A DNA stretch of 37,076 bases, taken from NCBI GenBank assembly GCA_025355505.1, contig JANXZM010000091.1, positions 1 through 37,076 of the forward strand, given 5' to 3'. Each line of letters opens with the position of its first letter. The stretch's first letter is position 1. Position numbers and translations under genes: made by a program. Origin of the DNA: Acidobacteriaceae bacterium. Lineage in GTDB: Bacteria > Acidobacteriota > Terriglobia > Terriglobales > Acidobacteriaceae. The notes below the pieces were generated by a model. It did no database searches. It was not told where the DNA came from and saw nothing but the letters and a program-made list of their open reading frames with translations. Of this stretch, positions 4,829 through 37,076 are shown piece after piece.

Positions 4829-5256
4829 CGCTGTTTATTCTCAGCATGAATCGTTCGGTGGAAGCCGCAGCTCCAGCTGCCAAAAAAGATTTTTGGTGAC
4901 GCCATATTGTCGATGAGCTTTAATGACGCCAAAAAAATCCTTCCACGAGGAGATACGGCGGCCACCGATTACTTCAAGAGTAAAACCACCGACCAGCTGA
5001 CATCCGCATTTCAACCCGTCGTCGAGAAGACCATGGGAGACAACGGAGTGACTCAACAATACAAAGCGCTCACAGATCAATACCAGTCCATTCCTTTTGC
5101 GAAAGCCAAAACTTCGACATTAACAAGTATGTCGTTGCCAAGGCTCTGGAGGGATTGTTTTACAAACTGGCAGATCAAGAACGGAAGATCCGCAAAGATC
5201 CCGCAGCGCGAACCACATCGTTGCTGAAGGAAGTCTTTGGTCAGTCGCGGAAGTAG
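4829..5256 (+). pseudogene. DUF4197 family protein, frameshifted and 5'-truncated
   Basis: Three frames together give one DUF4197-like protein. The first reads LFILSMNRSVEAAAPAAKK near 4829-4890, the second SMSFNDAKKILPRGDTAATD to VTQQYKALTDQYQSIPFAK (about 4910-5105), and the third NFDINKYVVAKALEGL to LLKEVFGQSRK, ending at TAG 5254-5256. At least two frameshifts break the gene, and the usual signal peptide plus the first half of the domain are absent. Members of this family are secreted proteins of unknown function. The remnant lies directly after the tRNA-Val att repeat, inside the putative island. Confidence 0.7.
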
Positions 5257-33509: not shown

Positions 33510-33518
33510 CTAGCGTAG

Positions 33519-33559
33519 GGACGGGCGCCCTCGCCCGTCCAAGCCGAGCACAGCTCGGC
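33519..33559. repeat. Two adjacent hairpins
   Basis: GGACGGGCG-CCCT-CGCCCGTCC (33519-33540) is followed by GCCGAGC-ACA-GCTCGGC (33543-33559). Both are perfect stems and probably REP-type. Confidence 0.6.
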
Positions 33560-33826
33560 CCCGCAGCGTGCACCAGCAGGACTTCACCCGCTGCGAAAAG
33601 AGTCAGGCCTATCCCGCACCCTCGCACCCAAAACCAAAATTCCCACTTGTTACTCAGTGGGTTCCCCCTGTGTCCTCTGTTTCTCCGGGAGTGAAAAATT
33701 CCTCTCGACCAGCGCCAACTCCCAGCTTTTCTCCACTTCCGCCCTGGAATCCGGGTCAGCCCAACCACTCTTCCTCCACTTGTTACTCCCCAGATACCTC
33801 CAAAACAAAGGGAATTATATACTTGA

Positions 33827-35680
33827 CTAGCCATTTCTAGAGGCTAACCAATCGTAGAACTTTTCGGGAATCGCCGAGATTTCGTCGTCTAAATATTTGT
33901 TCCCGTCATTGTCAGTAATCTCGCGACCATCCAAGTGTCGGAGGAATATCGGCGTCCCTCGCTTGTCAATTCCGGCAGTCTTTGGTGCCGCCATAAAGAC
34001 CGTATGGTTACTCTCAAAAATATTGGCTTCGGCCCTTCGCACTTCCTCTTTCGTGAACTTCTGAACAATCAGCACGCTTGGATTATTCACGCCGCCGCTG
34101 ACTGCAAACGTCTCCTTGGGTAAGTCCACCGAGGCGACAATTCGCCCACGCCTCAGCAGCCATGACCGCAGAAACCGCAGACTGGGGTTGTTCAAAATAC
34201 CATCGGGGAGGACGATTCCCAAGTATCCGCCCTCCCGCAGACACGCCATGGCCTTTTCGACAAATAGTTGCTCTGCTGGAATCGCCCCTCTACGGTTCTT
34301 AGTTTCCCAATTTGTAAGCTCGTAGCCGTCGAGCACATGGGCATCATCAATTTTCACCTCGGATCCAAATGGGGGATTGGTGAGGACAATGTCCGCACGA
34401 CCATAGGGAACCTTCTTGCGCGCTTCATCAGACCACTCGCCGGGAGACCGGCTAGAGTCCGCACGAAAGATATTGGTTGAACCGTCGCCGTGCATCACTA
34501 GATTCATTTGAGCCGTGCGCACAAGGAACGGATTTATATCCATCCCGAACATGCTGCGAGCACATGCATCGCGCACGCGCCTGCGAATCTTTCCTTCTAT
34601 ATCGCGGCTATTTCTAGTGGTCTCTTGGCGCCTGATGATACGACGCAAATTGTCTATCCACGAGACCAAAAAGCCTCCGGTACCGCAACAGCAATCAATA
34701 ACCTTCAAATCACTCAGGGCGTCTTCGTGAAACATCGACTGAATGATCTTGACGGTCATATCACATACATTGCGTGGGGTGAAGTATTCTCCCCTGTCGC
34801 CGCGAAGGTTCTGACCAACCAATTCTTCGTAAGCTGCCCCCTTCACGTCTGTCTCGGTCTCAGTCAGGGAAATGTATTGCATCTCCGCCACCACATAGGC
34901 GAGGACTAATGGTTCTAGCCTAATTTGCTCGTTTTCCTCGAAAATGTGAGGGAACCGATCTTTAACCTTCGAGAACAGCGGGCGAATCCTATCTTCCAAT
35001 AGTTTGCGCCGCCCACTTTCAGAACGCTGCTCTTTTGGATCGACGGCGAAGTTAAGCTCCGCCCCAGCACTTTCCTCTTCGTCGTACATCTTACAGAAAA
35101 TCAGCTTGAGCATTTCGTGAAATGCTTCGGCTTTTTGAAAACCTCCGTTTACGTGAATGTAGTTATGACAGCGCCGAAACATAGCAGTTAAATCATGTGT
35201 TACCTGCAAATCCTTGCGCTCAGGACGGCGCGGGCGATCCTCTCCGGCCAATGGTATGTCCGTGATTATTACTAGCTCGCCGTCAGGATTCTTTTCATAA
35301 GCTTGGCGTGCCTTGCCGACCCACAACCCAAACTTGCACGACACCGAGGCCGCCATATAGCTCTTGAGTTGACCATCGCCCTTACTTTTGTCAGATAGGT
35401 TTATGTCGTCCCTCTTGGTTTCAAGGATTATGACGATATTGTCCTGAATGTGATTAGAACCGGGCTTGAAAACAACAATGTCCGCCCGTTTGCGGGTTAC
35501 TCCCATCTGAATGGGGAACTCAAGAGCTACGTCATCTTTGGAATAGCCGTACTCGTCAATAAGGCTGCGTGCCCACCGCTGCCGGACGTGTTCTTCGGGG
35601 GTCTCCTTGCGGAGACTGCCAGTAAGGAAACAGCGTATATGCCCGCGTGGAATTAGATAAGTAACAACTGGTGAACTCAT
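33827..35680 (-). CDS. Nuclease-methyltransferase fusion (type I/IIB-like RM subunit)
   Basis: This 617-residue protein has an N-terminal PD-(D/E)xK-like domain of HSDR_N type (RKRADIVVF about 67-73, IILETKRDD about 83-91: D and ExK). A helical linker follows, then an N6-adenine methyltransferase: AYEELVGQNLRGDRGEYFTP, motif I IDCCCGTGGF (about 328-337, normally DPACGTGGF) and motif IV LTNPPFG (about 432-438). The last part resembles the HsdM C-terminal region. Its start overlaps the stop of the specificity gene (ATGA). A joined nuclease and methylase with a separate specificity subunit is the BcgI (type IIB) plan; a modification-only type I variant is the alternative. GC content is lower than in the core genes. 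Confidence 0.85.
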   Translation of the reverse strand: MSSPVVTYLIPRGHIRCFLTGSLRKETPEEHVRQRWARSLIDEYGYSKDDVALEFPIQMGVTRKRADIVVFKPGSNHIQDNIVIILETKRDDINLSDKSKGDGQLKSYMAASVSCKFGLWVGKARQAYEKNPDGELVIITDIPLAGEDRPRRPERKDLQVTHDLTAMFRRCHNYIHVNGGFQKAEAFHEMLKLIFCKMYDEEESAGAELNFAVDPKEQRSESGRRKLLEDRIRPLFSKVKDRFPHIFEENEQIRLEPLVLAYVVAEMQYISLTETETDVKGAAYEELVGQNLRGDRGEYFTPRNVCDMTVKIIQSMFHEDALSDLKVIDCCCGTGGFLVSWIDNLRRIIRRQETTRNSRDIEGKIRRRVRDACARSMFGMDINPFLVRTAQMNLVMHGDGSTNIFRADSSRSPGEWSDEARKKVPYGRADIVLTNPPFGSEVKIDDAHVLDGYELTNWETKNRRGAIPAEQLFVEKAMACLREGGYLGIVLPDGILNNPSLRFLRSWLLRRGRIVASVDLPKETFAVSGGVNNPSVLIVQKFTKEEVRRAEANIFESNHTVFMAAPKTAGIDKRGTPIFLRHLDGREITDNDGNKYLDDEISAIPEKFYDWLASRNG

Positions 35681-36498
35681 GCGCCCACCATCCCCGCCGT
35701 GTCGTCCGCAATTGTAGCAAGAGTGTCAATGGCTTGCTCGCGCATCTTTAGAGCGTGCATGGTCTTTTTGTGGATTGCAGAAACGTCGGCTTGTTCCAAC
35801 ATGGGAACCAATATTGTTTTAATCTGGTGGTGAGTTACATGGTCAATTTGACCTCCATGCGTATGGCCGCTGATCTGCTTCTGGGCTATGGGAGAGGACA
35901 GATATGCGTGTAAGAAGCCGACGGTGTTGGGATCGTTCGGAATGATGCGTATTAAGTCGTGCGTTGCCACCCATCGATCCAGACGCTCGGGGACGTAGAA
36001 CACTCTACCAATTGTGCCTGAGCAGGTCAGTAACAGCCATCCAGTCCGGATGATTAGCTCGTTAATATCAACGTCCGTCTGCCGGGACAGGTAGCGGGTT
36101 TGGTCGCTCAGCTTTCCGATTCCAGTGAGGCTCATCAGATCGGTGGCGTTGACATATGGTATTCCGTGATCCTTGTCAGCGGCCCAGATACGAACAAACT
36201 GACCAGGCAAGAGAACCGTAGCCATATCCGAAAGAAGCTTCAACGCATAACCAGATTTCCGTAGCGCCGTGAGTGCAGCAGCCGTATCGCGGTCATAGTG
36301 GCTCGCATCCAGTCGGATATTTGCATTCTCGTATATATCCTGTAGTGGCACTTCCCAAGTATCCACGGCGGCCCTGTTGTTGATGAGAGCATTCTTGGTT
36401 GTGGCCGGAGGAGCGCCCAACACGGCGTCAACCATCTCATCGAACTTGCCATACAGGTCGTTACTGGCGGTGTTAATTACGGAGACTGGCTTCTTCAT
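35677..36498 (-). CDS. Restriction-modification specificity subunit, single TRD
   Basis: The 273-residue protein has one target-recognition domain: NIRLDASHYDRDTAAALTAL, GYALKLLSDMATVLLPGQFV, then IIRTGWLLLTCSGTIGRVFY and the conserved HTHGGQIDHVTHHQIKTILV just before a helical spacer (HKKTMHALKMREQAIDTLAT). It is half the size of a normal HsdS (two TRDs), as expected if it dimerises or if the system is BcgI-like. It is placed between a transposase and the nuclease-methylase, sharing 4-base ATGA overlaps with both. The first 50 residues are not recognised. Confidence 0.85.
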   Translation of the reverse strand: MKKPVSVINTASNDLYGKFDEMVDAVLGAPPATTKNALINNRAAVDTWEVPLQDIYENANIRLDASHYDRDTAAALTALRKSGYALKLLSDMATVLLPGQFVRIWAADKDHGIPYVNATDLMSLTGIGKLSDQTRYLSRQTDVDINELIIRTGWLLLTCSGTIGRVFYVPERLDRWVATHDLIRIIPNDPNTVGFLHAYLSSPIAQKQISGHTHGGQIDHVTHHQIKTILVPMLEQADVSAIHKKTMHALKMREQAIDTLATIADDTAGMVGA

Positions 36499-36941
36499 GC
36501 CGTCAATCCCCTATATGAGAGTCTGCGGCCTATCATTCCATCGATGGTTCCGTTAATTGAATCTAAGCTGCCGAGACGTGCAGCATTGTGCCGATGAGAA
36601 AATTCCTCCACGTACCGATGAAGGTGCTTGGCACTCATGTGATGGTGAACGCCATAATATCCGCGCTTAAGCAACGCCCAGAACGATTCGATGCCGTTGG
36701 TGTGGGCCTTGCCGCGCACATATTCGCCTACACTGTGAGCGACTGCCTGATGCTTGTATCCCACCAAGCCGACATACCCGGCGTGCGAGTCGCTGTAGAT
36801 TGTGGCACCATAGCGAACATTCTCGGTGATAGCAGCATGTGGCGTTTCTCTATCGGTGTTCTGAATGGGGAAAGCCTTGACGGTGCCGGAGCGCGAACGC
36901 ATCCCAAATACCGCCGTCTTTCCTACCCCACCACGCCCTAG
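36495..36941 (-). pseudogene. IS1595/ISXO2-type transposase, N-terminus removed by IS5
   Basis: The remaining frame reads GRGGVGKTAVFGMRSRSGTV, then TENVRYGATIYSDSHAGYVG, VAHSVGEYVRGKAHTNGIES and FWALLKRGYYGVHHHMSAKH: the catalytic ISXO2-type domain with the DSHAGY aspartate and the NGIESFWA glutamate. The N-terminal zinc ribbon/HTH and the first catalytic residue are missing because an IS5-family end begins at 36942; the first eight codons of the open frame (MENLIRVS) are encoded by that IS. The stop overlaps the specificity-subunit start (ATGA), so the transposase was the first gene of a coupled operon. Confidence 0.85.
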
Positions 36942-37076
36942 GGAGACTCTGATTAAGTTCTCCATTTTCCACTGATGTTCAGGATAGATTGAGGGGAGAG
37001 CATCGGAGGGGTGGCGAGGATGAAACAGCGGACACTGGCGGCGCAGAGCGGGTTTGAACGGTACACGAAGAAGACG
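36942..37076 (+). mobile_element. IS5-family insertion sequence, left end (runs off the window)
   Basis: The left inverted repeat GGAGACTCTGATTAAGTTCT starts right after CTAG (36938-36941), a YTAR target site typical of the IS5 group. The transposase start codon follows at 37020. It interrupts the IS1595-type transposase gene. Confidence 0.75.
37020..37076 (+). CDS. IS5-family transposase, first 19 residues
   Basis: ATG 37020 encodes MKQRTLAAQSGFERYTKKT before the window ends. This start is characteristic of IS5-group transposases (MKQxTLAxxGFExYxKxTRR). GTGGCGAGG precedes the ATG as a weak ribosome site. The rest, including the DDE motif, lies outside the window. Confidence 0.8.
   Translation, partial: MKQRTLAAQSGFERYTKKT

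Follow-up and report, generated by a model that had tools for sequence, protein, structure and literature searches.

The window analysed here is a 37,076-nucleotide stretch of DNA, the whole of contig JANXZM010000091.1 (C24) in the genome assembly of an Acidobacteriaceae bacterium (GCA_025355505.1; 119 contigs, 4.16 Mb). Toward its right-hand edge lie three minus-strand genes of a candidate passenger-carrying insertion sequence (IS), each running directly into the next. They encode the C-terminal part of an IS1595-family (ISXO2-type) transposase (gene remnant at 36495-36941), a half-size specificity subunit, S (35677-36498), and a fused restriction nuclease-N6 adenine methyltransferase of 617 amino acids (33827-35680), hereafter the restriction-modification (RM) subunit. 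The genes are joined by two four-nucleotide ATGA overlaps on the minus strand, one holding the transposase stop and the S start (36495-36498) and the other the S stop and the RM start (35677-35680). An earlier sequence-only reading of the window had proposed this gene order, both overlaps and these gene families, and our domain searches and inspection of the sequence agree with it on all three.

The transposase matches PF12762 (8.1e-31) and scores 100.2 bits against NF033547 (cut-off 75), placing it in the IS1595 family by domain content; by alignment, two residues of the DDE triad, the second D and the E, fall in the part within the window. A Pfam domain scan of the RM subunit returned HSDR_N_2 (2.7e-18, residues 28-143) and N6_Mtase (5.7e-25, residues 277-550). 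Residues D67, E87, K89 and N435-P-P-F438, which we take to be functional motif residues, are unchanged across the three RM homologues aligned. The S protein, 273 amino acids long, has a single Methylase_S stretch (PF01420, 4.3e-8, residues 110-232).

Element ends on two contigs

The TAG stop of the RM gene falls within a terminal inverted repeat (TIR) at 33810-33833 (GGGAATTATATACTTGACTAGCCA, read inward), which forms the right end of the element. Directly outside it, positions 33802-33809 carry one copy of an 8-bp target site duplication (TSD), AAAACAAA on the plus strand and TTTGTTTT when read with the element. The sequence-only reading had put this boundary between 33,560 and 33,826, a close estimate that the actual repeat and duplicate refine. 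It had also taken the opposite end to be destroyed by a second IS. That end is preserved at the tip of another contig of the same genome (C53; locus L092), where the left TIR and the transposase N-terminus are followed by the other end of the second IS. The two TIRs are identical over 24 bases (the left one at L092:1495-1518), and the 8-bp duplicate outside the left TIR (L092:1487-1494) is an exact copy of that in the window. The 18-base TIR core has just two exact sites in this genome, those in the window and at the C53 end, and a third with 3 mismatches; a backward control pattern gave 1 match.

The 5' part of the transposase gene lies at L092:1563-2043 and includes, by alignment, the first catalytic Asp. 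The halves on the two contigs fit together at one CTAG, giving a reading frame of 308 codons, stop included, with no internal stop. Without the second IS the element measures 3677 bp, compared with 3703 bp for a relative on a viral contig (L028; see below). TIRs of the IS1595 family start with GG, as does GGGAATTATATACTTGACTAGCCA at both ends of this element. In the portion of the literature source available (PMC8101967), a GG start is stated for Merlin, and the IS1595 family is given an 8-bp target duplication and, except in the IS1016 group, an N-terminal zinc finger. The element shows both: TTTGTTTT flanks its two ends, and four cysteines (CPAC...CQDC) were found by eye in the C53 half of the transposase, as in aligned relatives.

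The assembly is split at this point because the second IS is inserted in the transposase gene. Its target is CTAG, present at both junctions (36938-36941 on the minus strand, and L092:2040-2043), and the end that closes the window occupies 36942-37076 on the minus strand. The same end repeat also terminates contigs C77, C98 and C73 at 100% identity, with TAG common to these three other junctions; the window side and the C53 side match as inverted repeats at 17/30 positions. The label IS5-type for this second IS comes from the sequence-only reading alone. That reading began the transposase at the ATG at 36965, which belongs to the inserted IS end, and the listed transposase open reading frame (ORF) therefore opens with 8 foreign residues. 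Judged from these junctions, the transposase gene is broken in this genome, and its RM copy would be stranded unless mobilised in trans.

We place the RM genes inside the element because the TIRs and the TSD bracket them and the two contigs are joined by matches. Given the contig link, the S and RM genes, which have no part in transposition, lie between TIRs (L092:1495 to window position 33810), as in a passenger-carrying IS (tIS). The feature is thus very probably an IS1595-family tIS of 3677 bp, arranged left TIR-transposase-S-nuclease/methylase-right TIR, and the earlier suggestion that the RM genes are transposon cargo is strengthened by TIRs that enclose transposase and RM genes alike and by the exact 8-bp duplication. 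Near the insertion site, at 33515-33559, we also observed a 45-bp GC-rich repeat with many copies in this genome and across the genus.

Other copies of the trio and the nature of the RM pair

The sequence-only reading had recommended a search for the same order of transposase, S and RM genes, and two further copies were found. On an independent viral contig, L028, the three genes occur together again (identity to the window proteins: transposase 69%, S 65%, RM 74%), with a full-length transposase, both TIRs and an S start codon, ATG at 5166, at the same -3 spacing. The longest inverted repeat of L028 encloses all three genes, and the same repeat type (GGGNNYTATATACTTGACTAGCCA) is found in the window at 33810-33833; inverted ends shared in this way around transposase and cargo were also among the signs that had been suggested. 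The second viral contig, L224, holds a decayed copy (S 43%, RM 61%) with a 46-residue C-terminal transposase remnant and a right TIR that overlaps the RM stop. No element end separates the transposase from the RM genes in any of the three RM-bearing loci with ends (the window's own element, L028 and L224). By eye, the L028 element lies amid recombination-like phage genes and that of L224 amid replication-like ones.

The RM pair has the layout of a Type IIB system, in which nuclease and methylase are fused and S is separate. BcgI combines a nuclease-methylase fusion with a separate S protein in this way, and among PDB sequences the RM subunit matches RM.BsaXI (8w0p) best (E 1e-29, residues 154-549). 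The S of BcgI/BsaXI-type enzymes carries two target-recognition domains, whereas only residues 110-232 of the window S match such a domain, and the second is absent. The half-size S may dimerise and so offset its single recognition domain. The window pair also differs from BcgI and BsaXI in its gene order, S then RM, and in that cleavage is predicted from the genes alone. The HsdR translocase motor of Type I RM systems is absent, the transposase, S and RM being the only genes between the TIRs. We considered and rejected membership in MADS: the RM subunit is MAD2-like and S is MAD5-like, but they score 521 bits (curated cut-off 720) and 155 bits (cut-off 400), respectively, and the element has no other MAD genes.

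Several observations weigh against the element as we describe it. The C53-C24 join is inferred from the TIR, TSD and CTAG matches, and no read or relative spans it. No empty site is demonstrated, because parB, a gene at the C53 end, did not adjoin the window's flanking gene within the fetched flanks at any of the relatives' loci (16/16). The TSD of L028 is not exact, only 3/8 bases agreeing, and the left element end of L224 was not found. L008, from a Desulfovibrionales metagenome-assembled genome and the one homologue obtained when 84,980 species genomes were scanned with a pattern that detects close relatives only, has the S-RM pair (RM 77-78% identical), with no transposase match or TIR within its 12.3-kb locus. 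Finally, the predicted structures are of low quality (mean pLDDT 34 and 36 for two models), and for that reason S dimerisation and the nuclease fold rest on sequence alone.

Homologues of the RM subunit occur on plasmids as well, at 35-41% identity in the five best records. In four that we inspected (H1-H4, 36-41%), no IS1595 transposase was annotated or detected by tblastn in the sequence retrieved, which for one of them begins only 1 kb upstream. Each of the four has, near its RM gene, two tandem matches to the window's half S. As L008 and the four plasmid relatives lack the transposase, this RM family also lives outside the element; homologous operons consistently free of a transposase had been named as a finding that would refute the cargo proposal, and those of L028 and L224 do adjoin transposase sequence. 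On these comparisons, the RM system appears as a passenger of the element in one small clade and as a free operon elsewhere, the element form having the half-size S.

Proposed mode of action, rival explanations and known systems

At its left end the element has TTGACT inside the TIR and CATAAT 17 bp further in. These would form the -35 and -10 of a sigma-70-like promoter driving a single mRNA. Among the related elements described below, a -10 match of at least 5/6 was found at 8/44 left ends vs 1/44 right ends, near-duplicates included, and one left-end promoter serving the whole operon is plausible. The two ATGA overlaps would make translation of S and RM depend on that of the transposase, and they predict that expression of the defence genes tracks transposase translation. 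The transposase, a zinc-ribbon DDE enzyme, would bind the TIRs and move everything between them as one unit into 8-bp sites. Dimerisation of the half S is probable, by analogy with the free relatives and their two S-like copies in tandem; S and RM together would then methylate a bipartite site and cut unmethylated DNA, as BcgI/BsaXI-type enzymes do. In this scheme the RM system would pay for the upkeep of the element by excluding phages or plasmids and by punishing loss.

The rival that fares best, which we nonetheless regard as unlikely, is that the cargo mainly tunes transposition, with the methylase marking the element's own ends or promoter and the nuclease secondary or dead. Dam methylation tunes other transposons, the putative operon promoter overlaps the TIR, and some related elements have a methylase without a recognised nuclease (L104 and L124, by PHROG; L133, by Pfam). 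A dispensable nuclease fits poorly with the retention of D67, E87 and K89 in the window protein and in both close homologues, and TIR-bounded relatives pair a methylase with an endonuclease (L034, L035, L045, L046, L215, L218); the BstA and PemK cargo of other relatives are not methylases at all. It is very improbable that the transposase has been domesticated as a regulator of the RM system and that the ends are fossils. Such a role would suit a gene that is broken here and reduced to a C-terminal remnant in L224, while S and RM remain open, but the break has perfect CTAG duplicates, L028 keeps a full-length transposase and both TIRs, and exact TSDs in six distinct viral-contig relatives and in 27/48 tabulated elements, the window's own included, are what mobility predicts. 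Slightly less credible again, and rejected, is a chance neighbourhood in which an IS1595 element inserted upstream of a resident RM operon and the overlap is accidental, for although homologous RM genes exist without a transposase (L008, H1-H4), the right TIR and TSD are on the far side of the RM genes from the transposase, and the same three genes occur together in L028 and, in decayed form, in L224. It could hold only if the contig link were misleading and the ends seen in L028 and L224 were misleading too.

Taken as a tIS with an RM operon as cargo, the element has established counterparts within its family, the IS1595-family tIS MTnSag1/tISSag10 and tISCpe8, both listed as mobilisable and the latter a lincomycin-resistance element (PMC5704250, in the part available). 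The likeness lies in an IS1595-type DDE transposase with passenger genes; the element here differs from those, as far as that part describes them, in carrying an RM operon that begins with a gene overlapping the transposase stop and ends with a stop codon in the TIR. Several proteins serve transposition in Tn7-like elements, whereas the window element has a single transposase; transposon-borne defence genes are common to both. Their carriage by Tn7-like transposons is described in the available part of PMC8649781. Movement of RM genes in insertion sequences or transposons has been mentioned before (PMC4176335), and control over transposition has been treated in general terms (PMC9296519), each according to the portion of the article at hand. 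In the literature searched we recognised no paper reporting RM or BstA genes as cargo of IS1595 elements, nor any account of their coupling to the transposase as a design that recurs; the paper that founded the family (Siguier et al. 2009, Res. Microbiol. 160:232) falls outside that search and may mention such cargo.

Cargo and gene coupling among related IS1595 elements

Transposase-anchored searches of viral contigs yielded 26 loci (of 32 candidate stretches) together with the best 80 of 450, and loci were also taken from the best 30 of the 79 genomes with matches, out of 396 genomes from the phylum of the window; scanning for the TIR pattern yielded further loci, including L174. In a paired-end scan 59/145 transposase loci passed, redundant rows included (L211, L217 and L223 are the same loci as L061, L067 and L071), and a stricter cut left 43 sequence-distinct elements. 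L121 was dropped by hand, L069 and L149 by the stricter cut, and L209 for a spurious 6-kb pairing. Our table of 48 elements comprises these 43 with two pairs merged (L048/L054, L049/L050), the window element as starting case, and six from 20 chromosomal stretches. Because the sample is mostly viral contigs (33/48) and one phylum, the cargo proportions below are not those of bacteria at large.

Most of the tabulated relatives span 2-4 kb. DNA methylase or RM cargo was present in 18/48 elements (17/47 minus the starting case), and in 8/27 of those with an exact TSD; the expectation that an RM passenger would be unusual holds only in part. Adding BstA-family and PemK cargo brings the count to 22/48 (11/27 with an exact TSD). 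Ten further elements carry P63C/phrog_2384 (4), PAPS-reductase-like (3), KilA-N (1), SocA (1) or Fic (1) genes, 13/48 have cargo of no recognised family, and three are without clear cargo (L067, L153, L162). Among elements from cell genomes, 3/15 have DNA-modification cargo, the window's included. The kinds are diverse: a D12 methylase with a HaeIII-type nuclease (L034), an N4/N6 methylase with an MvaI/BcnI nuclease (L035, L045, L046), C5 methylases, N6 methylases with or without S, and, in cell genomes, a methylase-HNH fusion and a C5 methylase with HNH (HNH in L215 and L218). Outside the 48, RM or BstA cargo was seen in L036 and L032 (one TIR found) and L044 (none found), and methylase cargo in L204, L209 and L213 (no TIR pair found).

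Coupling to the transposase is likewise shared. In 21/42 measurable elements, and in 10/17 of those with DNA-modification cargo, the end of the transposase gene is overlapped by a first cargo gene on its own strand; the window's -3 spacing between transposase stop and cargo start recurs in L028, L035, L041, L042, L043, L045, L046 and L162. Unrelated cargoes (P63C, KilA-N, BstA, D12 and N4 methylases, one S) also have a common N-terminal leader of the type IIEPIxASFDDVVxAIV, which directly follows the transposase gene in the first cargo of L029, L030, L033, L034, L036, L040, L046, L049, L095, L114 and L224. A model built from ten P63C/KilA-N/BstA/phrog_2384 cargo leaders matches the N-termini of 4/14 RM-type cargoes (E 5.4e-9 to 0.021, against 1.3 for the best of 1400 shuffles) and, besides these, the S of L224 (E 1.2e-4). 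Cargo exchange may take place through this leader as a constant region. For the window's own S it was rejected: this protein scored E 16 and the S of L028 E 3, no better than shuffles, and a widened model gave 6.9 and 0.78 against a best shuffle of 0.44. As the window S scores like shuffles though the related L224 S matches, leader homology for the window S is only positional.

A transposase tree was computed without L053 and L174, the latter having distorted a first tree, and with only the C-terminal half for the window. Support for the pairing of the window transposase with that of L028 is 100/98. Elements with the same cargo type tend to group together, requiring 15 changes vs 22.8 on average after shuffling; P63C and KilA-N cargo are intermixed among close relatives, with 4 and 3 changes, the least that the starred branches force. 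This pattern fits mostly joint inheritance of transposase and cargo, with some cargo exchange.

These results lead to a broader proposal, for and against which we see the case as evenly balanced. A large IS1595 branch would consist of minimal autonomous 'defence transposons', each a transposase with one or two often coupled anti-phage or addiction genes (several RM kinds, BstA, a PemK-type toxin and others) behind a left-TIR promoter. Cargo cassettes would be exchanged between a constant 5' segment, the source of the shared leader, and the right TIR, and the branch would be a main vehicle for complete RM systems in small mobile elements and into phage genomes. A 3.7-kb element in which the transposase is followed by a complete RM operon offers a concrete and testable vehicle for RM traffic, and the related MvaI/BcnI, HaeIII-type, C5-methylase, HNH and BstA cargo suggests that immunity spreads by this route more generally, viral contigs included. 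Because related elements carry other anti-phage genes, the data suggest that very small transposons help spread bacterial immunity.

Several individual loci merit mention. BstA-family abortive-infection genes, described as prophage-encoded in the available part of PMC8585504, lie directly after IS1595-type transposases on viral contigs at L032:6452-7495 (9.7e-112) and L033:6452-7522 (1.2e-118; both PADLOC). Both genes carry an extra N-terminal leader; L033 has two TIRs and an exact 8-bp TSD, and in L032 one TIR was found. In cell genomes, single-chain methylase-HNH fusions (L218:2024-3244, L209:2275-3627) and a methylase-Mrr fusion (L213:4050-5474) adjoin IS1595 transposases; of these three loci only L218 has a TIR pair and an exact TSD, and there the genes for cargo and transposase converge. 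PAPS-reductase-like cargo (L116, L143, L156) is possibly a DNA-modification gene, that of L143 being weakly SspD-like by PADLOC. An ApeA N-terminal-domain protein is encoded at L207:2508-3863 in a cell genome, 482 bp downstream of an IS1595 transposase at a locus where no TIR pair was found. L174:6827-7953 is an apparently non-autonomous element of 1127 bp with 24/24 TIRs and the TSD ATATATTA; rather than a cargo-free IS, it is derived by deletion, and what is left of the transposase runs in one frame into cargo that is P63C-like by eye.

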